Positions 2 to 6,953 of a DNA stretch of 64,000 nt are shown one piece after another. Position 1 is the stretch's first letter. Each line of letters opens with the position of its first letter. The position numbers and the translations under genes are program-made. Source of the stretch: Fluviicola sp. (GTDB lineage Bacteria; Bacteroidota; Bacteroidia; Flavobacteriales_D; Crocinitomicaceae); assembly GCF_039596395.1 (NCBI RefSeq), contig NZ_JBCNJT010000003.1:434001-498000 (forward strand). Direction: 5' to 3'. The notes beneath the pieces are model-generated. The model made no database searches. It worked only from the letters and a program-made list of their open reading frames with translations, and was not told where the DNA came from.

Positions 2-190
2 GCATTCATTTTTTCGTGTATCAATGAACTTCCGGATAATCAAAAAACTGCTTTAATCCTGAATAAAATAGAGCAGCTTCCATTGGCTGAAATAGCAGTG
101 ATTATGGAGCTTACACCGAAGGCTGTAGAATCTTTGGTGCAGCGGGCAAAAACAAATCTTTCAAAAAAAATAACGGACAGCGAGGGTTAA
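2..190 (+). CDS. ECF-type RNA polymerase sigma factor, C-terminal fragment
   Basis: Partial gene cut by the left edge; the last 62 residues are visible. They match region 4 of sigma-70 family ECF factors: the run INELPDNQKTALIL, then LPLAEIAVIM and TPKAVESLVQRAKTNL, which is the helix-turn-helix that reads the -35 element. The usual ECF ending of a short basic tail is present. The stop codon lies inside a putative ECF promoter (180-209) for the next gene, whose product looks like a membrane anti-sigma factor, so the pair fits an autoregulated sigma/anti-sigma unit. The family assignment is from sequence; the regulon is inferred. Confidence 0.85.
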   Translation, partial: AFIFSCINELPDNQKTALILNKIEQLPLAEIAVIMELTPKAVESLVQRAKTNLSKKITDSEG

Positions 191-209
191 CCTTCAAAAT
201 GTCGTCTAA
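180..209 (+). promoter_or_regulatory. Putative ECF-sigma promoter 1 (GCGAGGGTT-N12-GTCGTCTAA)
   Basis: Two blocks, GCGAGGGTT at 180-188 and GTCGTCTAA at 201-209, separated by 12 bases. The same blocks with the same spacing recur at 4030-4059 before the second YHYH gene. CGTC in the -10 region is common for ECF promoters. The predicted transcript would start near 215-217, which favours the ATG at 222 as the anti-sigma start. The motif is seen directly; promoter function is inferred. Confidence 0.6.
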
Positions 210-221
210 AAAATGAACAGC

Positions 222-482
222 ATGAAAAAAGATTCATTACATATCCTGGAAAAAATAGAAGCGGCAGAAGTTTCGCCCTTCCTTTTTACGCGTATCCAGG
301 CGAAAGTGCAGGAACAATTGCTCGAAAAGCTTTCAACGAAGCAGACAGTGATTTACCTGGCGGGAATTGCAATGATCATCACTTTGAACATCCTGGTGCT
401 GGGGGCAAAAAGTTCCTCCGAAACCGATGCGAATCTGGTTTCAGAAATGAATTTGACACCTTCCAATCAATTGTACCCATGA
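222..482 (+). CDS. Small single-pass membrane protein, putative anti-sigma factor
   Basis: 86 residues from the ATG at 222; an ATG at 213 would add three residues but lies at or before the predicted transcription start. Residues 1-45 are charged and probably cytoplasmic. One hydrophobic segment (VIYLAGIAMIITLNILVLG, about residues 44-62) is followed by a short periplasmic tail. Its position directly after an ECF sigma gene, and its topology (cytoplasmic N-terminus, one helix, short exterior), resemble small Bacteroidota anti-sigma factors. No zinc-binding motif is visible. It overlaps the next gene by ATGA, implying translational coupling. The anti-sigma role rests on context. Confidence 0.6.
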   Translation: MKKDSLHILEKIEAAEVSPFLFTRIQAKVQEQLLEKLSTKQTVIYLAGIAMIITLNILVLGAKSSSETDANLVSEMNLTPSNQLYP

Positions 483-913
483 AAAAGTCAGTGATCAGGA
501 ACGGATTCATAGTCGTATTGCTGCTAAGTAATGCTTTGTTCATTTACAAATGGTGGATGGCTCCGGAGAGAAGGCATCACGGGCCCCGGAATGAAATTAT
601 CGAAAGATTACACTTCGATGAGAAGCAGGTAGCCGAATACGATGTGTTGATACAAGGCCACAGAAGTGCAATTGAAAACGCTCAAAAAGAATTGCAGCAG
701 CAAAAACAAAAACTCTACGCAAACCTGGATGAACCTTTTTCAGATAGTTTATTGCAGGAAATTTTGAAGGTGGAAGCAAAGATCGAGCATATTCATTTCA
801 ATCATTTCAAAGACATACAGAAGTTGTGCAGGCCGGATCAGAAAAAACAGTTTAAAGCCCTGAACCGGGAAATTGCTCACTTGTTTTCACCCGGAAAAAG
901 ACCTCGTCCTTGA
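479..913 (+). CDS. Spy/CpxP-like periplasmic protein (putative heavy-metal sensor family)
   Basis: 144 residues. An N-terminal hydrophobic segment (about 8-23) anchors or exports it. The rest is a long amphipathic helical region (about 38-130) rich in Glu, Gln, Lys and His, followed by a basic tail. The pattern of the segment HFNHFKDIQKLCRPDQKKQF resembles the end of Spy/CpxP/CnrX-type proteins, where a helical hairpin precedes 'LTPEQR'-like residues. An RRHHGP patch near residue 33 and His pairs could bind metal. In CnrYXH-like systems such a protein sits beside an ECF sigma and its anti-sigma and senses metal; the same arrangement here supports a sensor role. The stop overlaps the TTG start of the next gene. 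Confidence 0.65.
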   Translation: MKKSVIRNGFIVVLLLSNALFIYKWWMAPERRHHGPRNEIIERLHFDEKQVAEYDVLIQGHRSAIENAQKELQQQKQKLYANLDEPFSDSLLQEILKVEAKIEHIHFNHFKDIQKLCRPDQKKQFKALNREIAHLFSPGKRPRP

Positions 914-1578
914 TTAAAATTGCCACATATTGCCTGTTCCTGGTACCACTTTTCGGGTGGGGACAATTGACCGTGGACATAAGCCTGAAATGTGAGAATC
1001 AGGCCATCGGTTTAAATACTCCTGTTCAATCAGACGCTTATTCTTTCCAGCTGGAGCAGGCACGGTTTTACCTGTCGAAATTTGAGTTTTATCATAACGG
1101 ACAGCTGACATTCCGGGATCCGGTTCCGGCTTATTTGGTGGATTTTGAAATTGATTCGACACGAAAATTGGTTTTTCCGGGTATAGCTGCCTTTGAAGTG
1201 GACGAAATCCGTTTTTTATTCGGAATAGATAGCGCTACAAATACTTCAGGTGCTATGGCCGGAGCATTGGACCCGATGCACGGCATGTACTGGAGTTGGC
1301 AAAGCGGTTATATCAACTGCAAACTGGAAGGAACGTTCTTAACGCCGGAAAAAGAAGCATTTCAGTTGCATCTCGGTGGGTACGCTCATCCATTTTTCGG
1401 TGCACAGCAAATTGTATTGAAAACAGATTCCGGGAAAACCCCGCAAATAACTATCGACCTGAATTTCCTGTTGGAGCGTGTTATAAGCGGCAAAACAGAA
1501 CGACAAGTAATGTCGCCGGGTTCCCGGGCTGTTGAATATGCCCGATTGCTGGCTAAATCCATTGACCTGAAACGATGA
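910..1578 (+). CDS. MbnP-like secreted protein
   Basis: 222 residues with a TTG start at 910 overlapping the previous stop (TTGA). No ATG is available nearby, and the TTG places a clean signal peptide (MIKIATYCLFLVPLFGWGQ) at the N-terminus. The central motif LDPMHGMYWSWQSGYINCKL (about residues 118-137) is the hallmark of the MbnP family. In methanotrophs MbnP is a copper-associated periplasmic protein in which a Trp is oxidised to kynurenine by its di-haem partner MbnH. The next gene encodes such a partner, overlapping by ATGA. Family membership is strong; copper binding here is inferred. Confidence 0.8.
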   Translation: MIKIATYCLFLVPLFGWGQLTVDISLKCENQAIGLNTPVQSDAYSFQLEQARFYLSKFEFYHNGQLTFRDPVPAYLVDFEIDSTRKLVFPGIAAFEVDEIRFLFGIDSATNTSGAMAGALDPMHGMYWSWQSGYINCKLEGTFLTPEKEAFQLHLGGYAHPFFGAQQIVLKTDSGKTPQITIDLNFLLERVISGKTERQVMSPGSRAVEYARLLAKSIDLKR

Positions 1579-2594
1579 AAAAGGTTGAACTGGTTTGCCT
1601 GCTGGTCATTTTACTGACAATTTCTTTTCGTTATACGGAAAGACTTTGGAAAACACCTGCGCATTGGCCTGAACCGGTCTATAATTTCAAAAAGAATCCC
1701 CTGGATTCTGCAACCGTGCAATTAGGCAGGGTTCTTTTCTACGATCCGGTTTTGTCTTCAGACAGTTCGGTTTCCTGCGCAAGTTGTCATTCTCCCTACA
1801 ATGCATTCACACACGCAGATCACGCATTGAGCCATGGAATCAAAGACCGCATCGGAACACGGAATTCCCCGGTTTTGGTGAATTTGGCCTGGGGAAAAAC
1901 GTTTATGTGGGACGGAGCGGTCAATCATCTCGATATGCAGGCACTTGCTCCTTTGGAAAACCACCTGGAAATGGATGAAACCTTGCCGAATGTGCTTCAA
2001 AAGATCCGTAAGCAGGAAAAATACAGGCAGCTTTTCAAAAATGCTTTTCATTCGGAAACTATCACCGGCGAACGTTTTTTGAAAGCCATCTCGCAGTTCA
2101 TGCTTACTCTGGTAAGCTCCGATTCCAAATACGACCGCGTGATGCGGGGCGAAGCGGGTGTTCAGTTTACCGATTCTGAAAACAAAGGATATGCTTTGTT
2201 CAAACAACATTGTGCTTCCTGTCACTCAGAACCTTTGTTTACAAACCAGACTTTTCAGAATAATGGCCTGGCTCCCGATTCCACGCTTCAGGACATCGGC
2301 CGGATGAAAATCACTCAAAAAAGTGCCGATTCTCTCAAATTCAAGGTTCCTACATTGCGGAATATCGAGCGGTCCGCTCCTTATATGCACGACGGTAGAT
2401 ACCGGAACCTTCAGATGGTATTATTCCATTATTCATCAGCCATTCATTCCTCACCGACACTCGCTTCGCAATTAAAGAACGGGATCAACCTGATGGAAGA
2501 AGATAAAAGGAACATCATCGCTTTCCTGAAAACATTGACAGACTATACCTTTTTAAACAATAAACAATTTCAATACCCACGAACAATTCAATAA
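1575..2594 (+). CDS. Di-haem cytochrome c peroxidase-family protein, MbnH-like
   Basis: 339 residues with an N-terminal export helix (about 6-19). Two CxxCH haem c sites are visible: C68-C71-H72 (SCASCH) and C213-C216-H217 (HCASCHSEP). The motif YMHDGR near residue 270 is typical of MauG/MbnH/bacterial cytochrome c peroxidases and sits before the distal helix. LGRVLFYDPVLS and GTRNSPVLVNLAW are standard for this family. The gene overlaps the MbnP-like gene by four bases and is followed two bases later by a YHYH gene. The expected role is periplasmic oxidation of MbnP Trp residues rather than bulk peroxide removal. The MbnH assignment over a general peroxidase rests on the MbnP neighbour. Confidence 0.8.
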   Translation: MKKVELVCLLVILLTISFRYTERLWKTPAHWPEPVYNFKKNPLDSATVQLGRVLFYDPVLSSDSSVSCASCHSPYNAFTHADHALSHGIKDRIGTRNSPVLVNLAWGKTFMWDGAVNHLDMQALAPLENHLEMDETLPNVLQKIRKQEKYRQLFKNAFHSETITGERFLKAISQFMLTLVSSDSKYDRVMRGEAGVQFTDSENKGYALFKQHCASCHSEPLFTNQTFQNNGLAPDSTLQDIGRMKITQKSADSLKFKVPTLRNIERSAPYMHDGRYRNLQMVLFHYSSAIHSSPTLASQLKNGINLMEEDKRNIIAFLKTLTDYTFLNNKQFQYPRTIQ

Positions 2595-2596
2595 GC

Positions 2597-3889
2597 ATGA
2601 AAAAAACAGCACTGCTTGTTTTGGCTTTAATCAGCTTAAAAACACAAGCTCAAACCGGTTTGGATAACTGGATTATGAATCAGGGAGAATTTGCTAGTTA
2701 CTGGGAAAATACCGCCGGACAGGCAGGCCCGCCAACTTATGTGTTTTATACATCAACCGTTTTGGCAAATGTCACTAAAGTATGTTATAACAACACTTAT
2801 GTCTGGACCCAGTCAGACGGGATGACCACCAACATGGGGCGGTTTTTGAATCCGGGTGCTCCTACAGAGCAAAATTATACCTACCGTTTTCCAAGAGTAC
2901 CTACAGTTCCAGTCACAAAAACAGCTGTTCCTATGGTTGGAGCAATTGCCTTATTAAATAACGGTGTTCCTGCTTTCGGGTTATCAAATGCTCATTACTA
3001 CAACGGGACGAATAACAATGGAATGGGAGTAGGGACCTGGAATGTGGAAGTTTACCTTTCCGAAGGATTTGTATTGGATACTACCATGGGCGCCCATCCT
3101 CAACAGCAAGGTGCATACCACAGCCATGCAAACCCGACAAGATTGTACGAAGGAACTCCGGCTACCCAGCATTCACCGATTATCGGTTACGCCTTTGATG
3201 GTTATCCAATTTACGGCCCTTACGGTTATGTGACAGCAACAGATGCTTCAAGTGGTATTACGCGTATGAAAACCGGTTTTGCTTTGAGAAATATTACCAC
3301 ACGAACCACTCTTCCCGATGGAACAGTATTGAACTCCGGCCAATACGGACCTGCAGTCAGTGCTACTTATCCGTTAGGAACTTATGTGGAAGACTACGCG
3401 TGGTCACAGGCCAACGGTGGAGACCTAGATATATACAACGGGCGTTTTTGTGTGACACCGGAATATCCATCCGGCACATATGCCTATTTTATCACGATCG
3501 ATGGAAACGGAACTCCTGAGTTCCCTTATATTTTAGGGACTTCCTACTATGGTGCTCCTGAAACAGCAGATATTACCATGGGTGCAAACATAACCATTCC
3601 TTCTTCAGGGGTTACTTGTTTTACGGAACCGCTATCTGTGAAAGAAATTCAGAAAATGGATGCCGAGGTTGCTCCGAATCCGTCGAATGGAATTTTCAAT
3701 TTAAAATTGCCGGATGTTTCAGGGAATGTAGAGCTGGAAATTTACAACACGACAGGTCAGCTTGTTTATTCCACTCAATTTACCGGAAATGAACAAATCA
3801 TTGATCTTTCAAAGGAATCTTCCGGTGTTTTTACCTTAAAAGTGACGAATAACGGAAAAGTAAGTTATTCAAAAATTGCATTGCAGTAA
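2597..3889 (+). CDS. YHYH-domain secreted protein with T9SS type A sorting tail
   Basis: 430 residues: signal peptide (1-19, ending AQ), YHYH domain over about 60-330, and a C-terminal T9SS sorting domain (about 350-430: VAPNPSNGIFNLKL, then a Gly-rich turn and the KIALQ end). The diagnostic motif appears as AYHSHANP at 173-180 (a variant of YHYH), followed by HSPIIGYAFDGYPIYGPYGY at 192-211. YHYH proteins have no established biochemical role that I know of; the conserved His and Tyr could bind metal. It starts two bases after the MbnH-like gene, so it probably shares its transcript. It should be exported and attached to, or released from, the cell surface by the type IX machinery. Confidence 0.8.
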   Translation: MKKTALLVLALISLKTQAQTGLDNWIMNQGEFASYWENTAGQAGPPTYVFYTSTVLANVTKVCYNNTYVWTQSDGMTTNMGRFLNPGAPTEQNYTYRFPRVPTVPVTKTAVPMVGAIALLNNGVPAFGLSNAHYYNGTNNNGMGVGTWNVEVYLSEGFVLDTTMGAHPQQQGAYHSHANPTRLYEGTPATQHSPIIGYAFDGYPIYGPYGYVTATDASSGITRMKTGFALRNITTRTTLPDGTVLNSGQYGPAVSATYPLGTYVEDYAWSQANGGDLDIYNGRFCVTPEYPSGTYAYFITIDGNGTPEFPYILGTSYYGAPETADITMGANITIPSSGVTCFTEPLSVKEIQKMDAEVAPNPSNGIFNLKLPDVSGNVELEIYNTTGQLVYSTQFTGNEQIIDLSKESSGVFTLKVTNNGKVSYSKIALQ

Positions 3890-3914
3890 ATTGTTACCTC
3901 TATATATGCGTAAG

Positions 3915-3968
3915 AAAAGCCGGTTTGTTCATGTTGCCTTCATTGGTTTAATGAATGGACCGGTTTTA
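3915..3968 (+). terminator. Putative terminator after the first YHYH gene
   Basis: An inverted repeat pairs AAAAGCCGGT with ACCGGTTTT around an inner hairpin (CATTGGTTTAATG), ending in TTTTATAG. It separates the first YHYH gene from the promoter-like motif at 4030-4059. Moderate stem; call by eye. Confidence 0.4.
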
Positions 3969-4029
3969 TAGAGAATAAGAAATCCGGTTTACCAGCAGGG
4001 AATGAGAGAAACAGGTTATTTTGTTTGAT

Positions 4030-4059
4030 GCGAGGGTTTCATGTAAAAGCGTCGTCTAA
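4030..4059 (+). promoter_or_regulatory. Putative ECF-sigma promoter 2 (GCGAGGGTT-N12-GTCGTCTAA)
   Basis: GCGAGGGTT at 4030-4038 and GTCGTCTAA at 4051-4059, separated by 12 bases, exactly as at 180-209. The spacers differ completely in sequence, which argues for two recognised boxes rather than a simple duplication. It would place transcription start near 4066, supporting the ATG at 4080 as start of the second YHYH gene. Confidence 0.6.
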
Positions 4060-4079
4060 CCGGTTAAATGCTTTATACT

Positions 4080-5429
4080 ATGAAACAGACAGCTGCAATG
4101 ATTCTATTTTCTATTTCCTCCGGAATAGGCTTTTCCCAAGGTCCGGCAATCACTTCCTGGTTGCAAAATACCACTTTGATGGGAAGCCATTATGTGAGCG
4201 GAAATTCAACACCCGTTCAGGATAATGTCCCTGTAAACACGCAATTGATCCAATATTCTGCTTCCTGGGTTTACGTAACGACCAATGGGATCCCTTCTTA
4301 TCCGACCGGCCCTTTTCTGGATGGAAACCCAAGCCAGGCAACAGATCAGAACGCGATTTTTAAAATCCCTCTCAATCCGACACAAAATACGGGAACACTT
4401 ACCGCTACAACCGGTGGGAATATCGGTGTGTTTATCAACGGTGTTGCCTTGTTTGATTACCGCGATGGAGTTTCCTGGAAGAATTCTTCGAATGCTCTTG
4501 CCGGTGGTCCGCTTGGAGGAATGGGAGACGGTGTCTGGAACCGCGATGCAGTTGTAGGCGAACGAGGCGGTTTTGACTGTGCGAAAGGCCATCCTGCCAT
4601 GGGAAATTACCACCATCATCAGAATCCAAGCGCATTTGATTTGGATCTGCAAGTCATTTCCACGGTTTGTAACCTCTACGATTCGGATGGATTGTACGCG
4701 ATTGACAGTACGCAGCATTCACCCTTAATCGGTTATGCCTATGACGGGTTTCCGATTTACGGAGCTTATGGATTTAAGAATGCAGACGGGACAGGTGGAA
4801 TAGTGCGCATGAAATCTTCTTTTTCGCTCCGGAATATCACCGTCCGAAATATCTATTACGACGGAACTTCGGTCACTGCCGGCCCGAATGTGAATGCAAC
4901 TTATCCTTTGGGTTATTTCCGCGAAGATTATGAATTTACAACTCCTGCCAGTTCAGATTATCTCGATATTCACAACGGACGTTTCTGCGTCACGCCGGAA
5001 TATCCTGCAGGGATTTACTGCTATTTTGCTACCGTGGATGAAAACTGGAACTCTGCCTATCCGTACGTGGTTGGTCCTACGTTTTACGGAAACAAAGTAG
5101 TCACAAAAGTTACTTCGGTAGGGGAGACCACCACCACTTACACACCGACAACTGCCGGATTGACCCAATCCGAATTGGAGAATTTGAATATCGATCTTTT
5201 CCCGAATCCGGCAAATGGTTTGGTAACGCTTCAGGTAAATGGCCTGGTGAAAGAGAATCTGACAGTTGGCCTGGCGGATATGACAGGCCGTATGGTGATG
5301 GAGAAGATCATTCCTGCAGGAAGTACCATTGCTTTTTTTGATACACAAACACTTCAGGCCGGCGAATACATCGTTCGGATCAACACTTCAAGTAGCGCAA
5401 TCACCAGGAAGTTGCTGATCGTGAAATAA
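4080..5429 (+). CDS. YHYH-domain secreted protein with C-terminal sorting domain (second copy)
   Basis: 449 residues from the ATG at 4080 (an upstream ATG at 4068 is less likely given the promoter position and the signal peptide MKQTAAMILFSISSGIGFSQ). The motif is NYHHHQNPSAF about residue 176, followed by HSPLIGYAYDGFPIYGAYG. It is a clear paralogue of the gene at 2597 but diverged, with an insertion rich in Gly and Asn before the motif. The tail (LFPNPANGLVTLQV ... KLLIVK) is a T9SS type A sorting domain. It is a separate transcription unit with its own copy of the ECF-like promoter, so it probably belongs to the same regulon. Biochemical function is unknown. Confidence 0.8.
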   Translation: MKQTAAMILFSISSGIGFSQGPAITSWLQNTTLMGSHYVSGNSTPVQDNVPVNTQLIQYSASWVYVTTNGIPSYPTGPFLDGNPSQATDQNAIFKIPLNPTQNTGTLTATTGGNIGVFINGVALFDYRDGVSWKNSSNALAGGPLGGMGDGVWNRDAVVGERGGFDCAKGHPAMGNYHHHQNPSAFDLDLQVISTVCNLYDSDGLYAIDSTQHSPLIGYAYDGFPIYGAYGFKNADGTGGIVRMKSSFSLRNITVRNIYYDGTSVTAGPNVNATYPLGYFREDYEFTTPASSDYLDIHNGRFCVTPEYPAGIYCYFATVDENWNSAYPYVVGPTFYGNKVVTKVTSVGETTTTYTPTTAGLTQSELENLNIDLFPNPANGLVTLQVNGLVKENLTVGLADMTGRMVMEKIIPAGSTIAFFDTQTLQAGEYIVRINTSSSAITRKLLIVK

Positions 5430-5447
5430 GTAGTTACGGTTTAAAGA

Positions 5448-5480
5448 AAAACGCAGGTCCGGAGATCTGCGTTTTTTTTA
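5448..5480 (+). terminator. Rho-independent terminator of the second YHYH gene
   Basis: Stem AAACGCAG / CTGCGTTT with a 10-base loop, followed by a run of T. The remaining DNA to 5728 is AT-rich with no gene; it holds only the direct repeat at 5678-5716. Confidence 0.8.
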
Positions 5481-5728: not shown

Positions 5729-6502
5729 TCAGACAGTCGGCAATGCTCCGCCATCAATGGAATAATTGGTTCCTGTAATATAGCTCGCTTCCGAAGATAC
5801 CAGGAAGGCTACCAGATCCGCAATTTCTTTCGGTTCAGCCATTCTGCCCAGTGACGTACCCACTTTGTCCATGACAATTTTGAATGCTTCTTCTGAGCTA
5901 ATGGCTGATGATTTCGCGATATTCTCAATGAATTCAAGCATTAAAGGTGTTTTGACAACTCCCGGAGAAACAACATTCACCCGTATGCCTTTCGGACCTA
6001 CTTCGCTTGCCAATGCTTTGCTGTATGCATTCAATGCTGCTTTTGCAGACGAATAAGACATGGTCATTTCCCAGATCGGTAGTTTGGCAGCTCCTGTTGA
6101 GACGTTAATAATTACTCCGTTCTTTCGTTCCAGCATCAGGGGCAATAACGCTTTGTTGATGCGTACTACAGACATGAAATTCAGTTGCCAGTCATTTAAC
6201 CAATGTTCGTCGGAAAGTTCATTGAATCCACCGCCCGGGCTTAAATTGGCTCCTGCGTTATTGACAATGATATCCAGTTTGCCGTACTTTTCTACGATTT
6301 CCTTTGCGATCTTTTCCGCACTTCCCGCTTGAGTTAAGTCTGCTGCTATAAAATGGTGTCCGTTTGTGTTTTCTTTCGGTGCAGTCCGGGCAGTTACTAC
6401 CACCTGGATTCCTTTGCTGCTCAATTTGTCTGCAATGGCTTTTCCGATGCCTTTTGTTCCACCGGTTATTAAGGCAACTTGCCGGTTTTTTAAATCCTTC
6501 AT
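5729..6502 (-). CDS. Short-chain dehydrogenase/reductase (SDR)
   Basis: 257 residues from the ATG at 6502; longer starts add an unlikely AT-rich hydrophobic extension. Classical SDR features: cofactor motif TGGTKGIGKAIA near residue 14, NNAGAN, the Ser in INVSTGAAK, and the catalytic YSSAKAALNAYSKAL (Tyr-x3-Lys). The C-terminus has the usual SYITGTNYSIDGG. The substrate cannot be told; the Arg near the start of the cofactor fold suggests NADP(H). It is divergent from an HxlR regulator at 6618, and such pairs are commonly regulated by electrophiles, aldehydes or quinones. The pair sits between two copies of a 39-bp repeat. Confidence 0.9.
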   Translation of the reverse strand: MKDLKNRQVALITGGTKGIGKAIADKLSSKGIQVVVTARTAPKENTNGHHFIAADLTQAGSAEKIAKEIVEKYGKLDIIVNNAGANLSPGGGFNELSDEHWLNDWQLNFMSVVRINKALLPLMLERKNGVIINVSTGAAKLPIWEMTMSYSSAKAALNAYSKALASEVGPKGIRVNVVSPGVVKTPLMLEFIENIAKSSAISSEEAFKIVMDKVGTSLGRMAEPKEIADLVAFLVSSEASYITGTNYSIDGGALPTV

Positions 6503-6617
6503 ATTGATTATTTTGAAAATGAGTTGCAAAGTAAAATACAAAACTTTACTTTTGAAAGTAGTAACACGAATGTATAGTAATAACACAAATTAAAGTATTC
6601 AATTAAATCAATGGGTT
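6503..6617. promoter_or_regulatory. Divergent promoter region between SDR and HxlR genes
   Basis: 115 bases between divergent starts. Holds repeated elements TAGTAACAC and TAGTAATAACAC (about 6559-6589) and a short inverted repeat ACTTT-N7-AAAGT (about 6543-6561). HxlR proteins usually bind such sites between divergent genes. Exact operators are inferred. Confidence 0.4.
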
Positions 6618-6953
6618 ATGGCTGAAATAAAAAATGAAAAAAATGTAGCAAGATGTGCGCTTCAGGAAATCTTGGGGGTAATAGGCGGAAAATGGTCGAT
6701 GTCGATTATCTACGCGTTGTTTACCGGGAAGAAACGCTTCAGTGAGTTGGAACGTTTGATTCCCAACATCAATACCCGCATGCTGGTGAAGGAATTGAAA
6801 AATATGGAAGCAAACGGAATCGTTAAGAGGGAAGTTTTTGCAACTGTTCCTCCAACGGTAGAATATACTTTAACAACAAAAGGGGAAAAGCTAAAACCCA
6901 GTATTGATGAATTGCATAAATGGGGGCTTGAATATGTGAATCATGGGTTCTGA
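6618..6953 (+). CDS. HxlR-family winged-helix transcriptional regulator
   Basis: 111 residues, normal for the family. The N-terminus carries the conserved Cys (about residue 13) directly before LQEILGVIGGKWS, the family signature. It is followed by the recognition region RFSELERLIPNINTRMLVKE and the wing around VEYTLTTKGEKL. In HypR, YodB and QorR this Cys senses electrophiles or oxidants. The divergent SDR gene is the likely target. The start is the first ATG with a good fit to the family N-terminus. Confidence 0.9.
   Translation: MAEIKNEKNVARCALQEILGVIGGKWSMSIIYALFTGKKRFSELERLIPNINTRMLVKELKNMEANGIVKREVFATVPPTVEYTLTTKGEKLKPSIDELHKWGLEYVNHGF

Follow-up and report, generated by a model that had tools for sequence, protein, structure and literature searches.

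Genes and promoter-like sites of the locus

The window, a 64,000-nucleotide stretch of the genome of a freshwater bacterium, Fluviicola sp. (contig NZ_JBCNJT010000003.1, positions 434,001 to 498,000 of the forward strand), opens on a plus-strand locus in which an extracytoplasmic function (ECF) sigma factor gene is joined to MbnP-, MbnH- and YHYH-type genes. Two sites in this locus look like copies of one conserved ECF-type promoter. The 3' part of the sigma gene lies at 1-190; the whole gene (L003:7687-8190, 167 amino acids) starts 314 bases before the window. It is followed by genes for a small single-helix membrane protein, presumed to be the anti-sigma factor (213-482); a periplasmic sensor with an N-terminal membrane helix and a CnrX fold according to a predicted model and Foldseek (479-913); an MbnP-family protein (910-1578; Pfam MbnP 117.7 bits, cut-off 27) that keeps the WxW motif; a di-haem MbnH/MauG-like enzyme with two CxxCH motifs (1575-2594; Pfam CCP_MauG 190 bits); and two YHYH proteins, each with a type IX secretion tail, namely YHYH1 (2597-3889; Pfam YHYH 152.8 bits, Por_Secre_tail 44.5 bits) and YHYH2 (4080-5429; 200.9 and 44.1 bits, respectively).

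Site A (180-209, plus strand) was comprised of a -35 box, GCGAGGGTT, at 180-188, a spacer at 189-200 and a -10 box, GTCGTCTAA, at 201-209. It covers the stop codon of the sigma gene and lies 5' of the anti-sigma gene, which starts at ATG 213 or ATG 222, 3 or 12 bases past the -10 box. Site B (4030-4059, plus strand) has its -35 box at 4030-4038, its spacer at 4039-4050 and its -10 box at 4051-4059, and 20 bases separate its end from the likely ATG of YHYH2 at 4080. Each site is 30 bases long and consists of two 9-base boxes, the same at A and B, around a spacer of 12 bases (GCGAGGGTT-N12-GTCGTCTAA), exactly as a previous sequence-only reading of this DNA had claimed.

Apart from A and B, the 64-kb window contained no match with up to three mismatches (0.04 expected). 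The core AGGGTT-N10..14-GTCGTCTA had exactly two matches in the 4,635,315-base genome, sites A and B, and one in the backwards control; a genome search for the motif thus returned no random matches. With up to two mismatches and a spacer of 12, the whole genome gave 14 matches versus 48 for the backwards control, so the regulon visible by motif in the window genome consists of A and B alone. The sole genomic site with one mismatch lies antisense to a LysM-like coding gene and was not counted as a regulon member.

Between the YHYH genes, a strong hairpin without a T run was found at 3916-3967 (plus strand, -26.7 kcal/mol, z -6.0). Another genome (G139, locus L055) has a hairpin directly 5' of site B, with a T run at the end of its 3' arm. 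The presence of hairpins 5' of site B in both genomes favours YHYH2 having a promoter of its own. A structure like an intrinsic terminator, hairpin plus T run, lies 3' of YHYH2 (5444-5479, plus strand, -19.8 kcal/mol, z -5.3); it was absent from the matches of a simple terminator scan.

Conservation of the locus and held-out motif searches

The same locus was found in Fluviicola chungangensis (L089). Three loci of the genus carried both boxes, bearing out the expectation that these would be conserved in orthologous loci: GCGAGGGAT was present at both A and B in G121, GCGAGGGTT at both in G139, and variant boxes at both in G103. In G124 site A is kept; YHYH2 is absent at the locus and site B is absent too.

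Of 399 genomes sampled from the order, 105 had a relative of the sigma factor (E<=1e-25). In total, 74 loci were examined (the window, 13 and 60 more); excluded from the set were the broken remnant of a sigma gene in G206 and 30 further matches. A homologue of the sensor was found in all 74 loci and one of the small membrane gene in 72, while MbnP-type and MbnH-type open reading frames (ORFs) were found in 49 and 48, respectively. The G206 remnant (L065, G206:C54) is a sigma fragment that covers residues 15-75 at 85% identity and contains a stop; the upstream gene conserved at the locus lies nearby, and the sigma system may have been lost in this genome. One contig with a full set of sigma/anti-sigma/sensor triad, MbnP and MbnH also carries a second triad (L163:9348-10758).

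Across the phylum, such a sigma was present in 136 of 395 genomes. Among 28 loci outside the order, the sensor gene was found in 27 (the 28th ends at a contig end) and the motif at the sigma/anti-sigma junction in 12, with the threshold taken from letter shuffles. In a set of 80 named loci, 42 of 79 YHYH genes scored >10.0 (one locus had no YHYH call). The sigma gene is on the same strand in 31 of these loci, and 29 of the 31 sigma ends scored >=12.3; MbnH shares the strand in 68 of the 80. This set overlaps the first by at least five loci (L089, L093, L111, L135, L143). A contig labelled Phycisphaerales (L110), possibly misbinned, carried MbnP, MbnH and YHYH genes with a class I site (defined below).

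A two-box matrix, which replaced an earlier matrix built from A and B, was trained on sigma/anti-sigma junctions alone, with a threshold at 1% of shuffled sequences and a 2-bit charge for spacers of 11 or 13. Sites above threshold were found at 63 of the 74 junctions, the training set; three training matches have a spacer of 13. Held-out regions upstream of YHYH genes carried a site in 27 of 39 cases (0.39 expected), distributed over 27 of 37 genomes, and held-out regions upstream of sigma genes in 24 of 74 (0.74 expected). All held-out matches had a spacer of 12. At the junctions of non-orthologous ECF genes the motif was found in 0 of 14 scored loci (15 were given, one had no ORF and the ORF of L048 is not a sigma, leaving 13 valid), and the possibility of a chance or generic ECF motif was rejected by this result.

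The anti-sigma start lay 0-19 bases past the -10 box in 60 of 62 measured loci and 6-12 bases past it in 45. The commonest distance was 6 bases (17 of 62). Transcription from ECF promoters normally starts a few bases past the -10 box, and an anti-sigma mRNA with little or no leader is therefore predicted.

Co-variation of the -35 box with the sigma factor

Two main forms of the -35 box were found, which differ between clades: class I, CGARGGAT-like, as in the window, and class II, CGCAAGTT-like. Of the 25 genomes with both A and B, 23 had the same three-base -35 class at both. Box identity was 14.4 of 18 within genomes versus 11.8 between them (permutation p 5e-5 overall and 2e-4 for the 12 class I genomes alone), and the spacers of A and B were 45% identical on average.

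Sigma position 145, in region 4 by alignment, was the most informative about the -35 class. In the 70 loci with a site, K145 occurred with A at -35 base 4 in 34 of 34 cases and other residues with C or T in 35 of 36; F152 occurred with A or T at base 6 in 37 of 38, and where position 152 held another residue, base 6 was G (32 of 32). Two changes of -35 class are needed on a quick tree. Promoter and sigma appear to have changed together. Overall, the proposal of the sequence-only reading that the operon and the second YHYH gene share one ECF-type promoter was borne out by the conservation of the sites, their absence elsewhere in the genome and their co-variation between the two places.

Products of the locus

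Only regions 2 and 4 were recognised in the sigma factor, each with a Pfam score over cut-off (67.6 bits for Sigma70_r2, 49.2 for Sigma70_r4_2). Its solved relatives include CnrH; RpoE- and SigH-type factors match better. The 213-482 protein matched no Pfam or NCBIfam family. In its alignment a single helix stands between a short N-terminal stretch and a C-terminus that is fairly well conserved. In size and topology it agrees with the class II anti-sigma CnrY, to which a profile search of solved structures gave no match.

The sensor model (pLDDT 89.6) found CnrX at Foldseek ranks 1-7 (probability 1.00, TM to target 0.72-0.76, E 0.045-0.085) and again at ranks 9-15, and NccX at rank 16, with probabilities of 0.99-1.00 for CnrX and NccX; ranks 8, 17 and 18 were taken by a Salmonella VirG-like protein. 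One sequence profile of the sensor matched Spy (3oeo, E 0.0055) and NccX (E 0.32), and a second matched the Salmonella VirG-like protein (5ihf, E 6.6e-5) and Spy (E 0.019) with no NccX match. The Pfam LTXXQ score of 18.4 bits was below cut-off. His61 was kept in 72 of 74 loci and Cys117 in 69 of 74. The sensor had previously been called Spy/CpxP-like; the sequence profiles do touch Spy, but by the predicted model it is better called CnrX-fold.

The MbnP-domain and di-haem MauG-like genes are adjacent, with WxW and both CxxCH present. In residue alignments from which short ORFs were left out, W128, W130 and H154 of MbnP were kept in 47 of 47 sequences and both CxxCH of MbnH in 45 of 45; relatives of the latter include 6e1c, a 'Di-heme enzyme'. 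The scores were 36.4 bits for MbnP against TIGR04052 (equivalog cut-off 140) and 210 bits for MbnH against TIGR04039 (equivalog cut-off 362.85). With both proteins under the NCBIfam equivalog cut-offs, the labels 'MbnP-like' and 'MbnH-like' were the right ones. Pfam and NCBIfam scans of the seven locus products found no methanobactin family. A fold model of the YHYH protein had a pLDDT of 47 and was not used.

Two genes 3' of the locus, read from their translations, are apparently unrelated to it: a short-chain-dehydrogenase-looking gene (5729-6586) and a divergent HxlR-like regulator gene (6618-6953).

Sites outside the operon in related genomes

Eighteen class I genomes contained 31 sites with up to one mismatch (control 9), 25 of them within the operon. 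Of the six outside it, two looked like chance matches; the others stood before a pair of VTC-domain and DUF4956 genes, in that order, in G307 (by Pfam) and G371 (by sequence likeness only), and before a CotH gene in G307 (by Pfam) and G011 (69% identical to the G307 CotH). Sixteen class II genomes contained 21 sites (control 5), including sites outside the operon before CotH genes in G344 and G157 and before a TonB-receptor-like gene in G344; two more fell within ORFs. In all, four sites were judged to be chance matches: G115:C2, where there is no ORF and the sequence looks like rRNA, and G009:C2, G216:C6 and G250:C64, which are inside ORFs.

A search for CotH gave a match in 32 of 38 genomes. 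Of 30 CotH loci one was truncated; among the 29 scanned, 13 had a site scoring >10.7, all with a spacer of 12 and with the -35 class of their own genome; four of these 13 were originally found through the motif itself, and the longer CotH regions were scored without a shuffle control. The same promoter class preceded CotH-kinase or VTC/DUF4956 genes in L241, L253, L259, L243, L265 and L277. In some relatives the gene behind the sensor or triad differed: a CotH gene follows the sensor gene in G021, EF-hand and VTC genes follow the triad in G031, and the G104 sensor gene is directly followed by a multicopper oxidase gene (L274:1-1530, minus strand), which has a class II site of its own and takes the place of MbnP and MbnH. 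By their upstream sites, the CotH and VTC/DUF4956 families are linked to the YHYH/MbnP regulon.

A candidate metal-responsive sigma regulon

Computation established the gene set, a predicted sensor fold and two sites that are rare, conserved and co-varying. The interpretation favoured, with good confidence, is a sigma regulon of the CnrYXH-like type that probably responds to copper, has an MbnP/MbnH/YHYH output and is widespread in the phylum. The following points are proposals: that this sigma uses A and B as promoters, that the 213-482 protein is its anti-sigma, what the signal is, and what MbnP, MbnH and YHYH do. By analogy, the ECF sigma would be held at the inner membrane by the 213-482 protein working with the CnrX-fold sensor. 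On detecting a metal or a redox signal in the periplasm, with copper the likeliest, the sensor would bring about release of the sigma, which would then guide RNA polymerase to two promoters that share one specificity. Site A would drive the anti-sigma, sensor, MbnP, MbnH and YHYH1 genes, that is, the output together with its own shut-off, and site B would drive YHYH2. The output would be exported proteins. MbnP may bind copper after modification by MbnH, and type IX secretion would carry the YHYH proteins to the surface.

Copper was proposed as the signal because of the MbnP and MbnH genes and the multicopper oxidase in one relative (G104). Earlier work ties MbnP to copper, and TIGR04052 is named 'MbnP family copper-binding protein'. 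A clearly less probable alternative is that the same sigma regulon answers a different signal, be it another metal (nickel, cobalt, zinc) or envelope or oxidative stress in the manner of Spy-type proteins. CnrYXH is described as responding to nickel and cobalt (PMC4803752), the sensor profiles match Spy and the Salmonella VirG-like protein at the E-values given above, and the G031 triad precedes EF-hand and VTC genes. Copper is favoured over these signals by the MbnP- and MbnH-type ORFs in 49 and 48 of the 74 loci and by the multicopper oxidase behind the G104 triad.

Several results weigh against a copper-responsive, CnrYXH-like regulon. Copper is proposed from gene families alone, and MbnP and MbnH both score below the curated equivalog cut-offs, which counts against the copper part. 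A profile search of solved structures with the 213-482 protein found no relative and no CnrY match. The Foldseek E-values for the sensor were weak (best 0.045, none <0.001) with a predicted model as the query, and by sequence the sensor is closer to Spy-type proteins than to NccX. Site A was absent in 11 of 74 loci, no site B was detected in 10 of 37 genomes, and four of 74 loci had no site at any of the three places, A, B or upstream of sigma (C). Sixteen of the 29 CotH loci had no site, including the loci of six Fluviicola genomes, and one of the 14 paralogous ECF loci scored 10.8 upstream of its sigma, just above threshold. The permutation tests ignore kinship, and in class II alone (11 genomes) there was no effect (p 0.43). 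Only one or two independent residue/-35 pairs fell on supported branches. The residue/-35 link is thus a strong correlation with weak evolutionary proof, because the independent changes are few.

Expression of the sigma gene itself

The sequence-only reading had described an autoregulated ECF promoter. In the 160 bases before the sigma gene, no copy of the A/B-type site reached threshold in five Fluviicola orthologs; autoregulation of this kind was not supported for the window genome. A site upstream of sigma does occur in 24 of the 74 wider loci, for example G136, and among them are the more distant triads of the same-genus G216 and G106. Those loci are also what speaks for a copy having been missed in a sigma that is positively autoregulated as usual. 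This is improbable given the empty upstream regions of the five orthologs and a distinct, locus-specific element, TTAAACTTTTNGTATCATT..YTCTTAAG, conserved upstream of sigma instead. The element differs from A and B, occurs in five of five Fluviicola orthologs and lies outside the window at L003:7640-7670, 17-47 bases before the sigma ATG. At up to three mismatches and two spacings it had no other match in the five Fluviicola genomes. It is readable as 9+12+9 and may therefore be a promoter for another sigma.

With its gene served by another element, the sigma would not be amplified here, unlike in about a third of related loci. Site A lies behind the sigma gene, and activation would therefore yield more anti-sigma and sensor rather than sigma, a built-in shut-off. 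Transcription of sigma may also occur by read-through from an upstream gene. A 171-amino-acid protein with no Pfam match is encoded upstream of sigma (L003:7114-7629), and its relatives lie beside sigma in G121 and G139 and also occur in L065 of G206.

Other explanations of the sites

Two boxes at a fixed spacing could also be bound by a dimer, and sites A and B would then belong to a DNA-binding repressor or activator and not to a sigma factor. This is slightly more improbable still: the boxes are no repeats of each other, and their order, spacing and CGTCTAA-type -10 box fit ECF promoters. In 60 of 62 loci the anti-sigma gene starts 0-19 bases past the end of the site, the -35 variant follows sigma region 4 residues, and Pfam and NCBIfam scans of the window locus recognised no regulator gene besides sigma. 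That site A is conserved merely as the coding end of sigma, which it overlaps in 33 of the 63 loci with a site, and that site B is a chance look-alike is scarcely credible, given that site A starts past the sigma stop in the other 30, that boxes of the same class stand at B and before CotH genes, that the A and B spacers share only 45% identity on average, and that the held-out test at B (27 of 39 YHYH upstream regions) contradicts chance.

A wider reading of the regulon described above is offered with doubt slightly outweighing confidence. It would be an undescribed Bacteroidota CnrX-type metal-sensing sigma system that combines a surface programme, a specificity switch and a leaderless anti-sigma mRNA. 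The programme would include MbnP/MbnH and YHYH and, in relatives, CotH, VTC/DUF4956 and multicopper oxidase. In the switch, residue 145 (K versus S, G or other) would set -35 base 4 (A versus C or T) and residue 152 (F versus Q, S or other) would set base 6 (A or T versus G), with the target promoters following. The anti-sigma transcript would start at or next to the start codon, just behind the sigma gene.

Placing YHYH, with CotH and VTC in relatives, in one probable metal-sensing regulon with MbnP and MbnH would give a handle on poorly understood families. The sigma recognition helices and their matching -35 boxes form a natural series that would be useful for work on ECF promoter specificity. 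One survey places a class I anti-sigma near only 6% of the ECF genes of this phylum, versus a 32% average (PMC7406223), and the CnrYXH architecture would be extended to such a phylum.

Comparison with known systems

Among the titles and abstracts returned by literature searches, none described this combination of parts; an existing ECF group and motif may already cover the sigma. In Gram-positives, CotH, a polyphosphate polymerase (VTC) and DUF4956 are described as an accessory cluster next to pel genes (PMC7112168). Genes of these families also have the promoter in some relatives here, lying behind an ECF-type site, whereas in the Gram-positives they lie beside exopolysaccharide genes.

The MbnP/MbnH pair is described as conserved far outside methanobactin producers (PMC3621798). 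As in methanobactin operons, the MbnP-family and di-haem MauG-like genes of the window are adjacent. Unlike those pairs, they are joined to a CnrX-type sigma switch and YHYH genes and score under the equivalog cut-offs.

CorE of Myxococcus xanthus has a C-terminal sensing domain, whereas the sigma here has 167 amino acids, regions 2 and 4 only, and an anti-sigma/sensor pair. CorE is described as an ECF sigma over copper genes, including a multicopper oxidase, that needs copper for DNA binding and whose excess alone gave no target activation in that account (PMC3107203).

The closest parallel is CnrYXH/cnrCBAT of Cupriavidus metallidurans (and NccYXH). As far as these systems are described in PMC9045368 and PMC4803752, an ECF sigma, a short one-helix anti-sigma and a CnrX-fold sensor are likewise adjacent, with one site before the anti-sigma, one before an effector and basal expression from another promoter; PMC9045368 places CnrH-dependent promoters before cnrY and cnrC and assigns basal expression to a housekeeping promoter. 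The sequence-only reading knew of no described system combining these parts, and this needs qualifying: the architecture parallels CnrYXH with its cnrY and cnrC promoters, as set out in PMC9045368, and the output differs. The gene order here is sigma, anti-sigma, sensor; the promoter lies over the 3' end of sigma with none before it; and the sensor has the conserved His61 and Cys117. CnrYXH controls RND efflux, whereas no RND genes lie behind sites A and B in the window, the effectors being MbnP, MbnH and YHYH instead (CotH, VTC and multicopper oxidase in some relatives). The mechanism would thus be of a known kind, that of CnrYXH, and its new features would be the placement of the feedback and the output.

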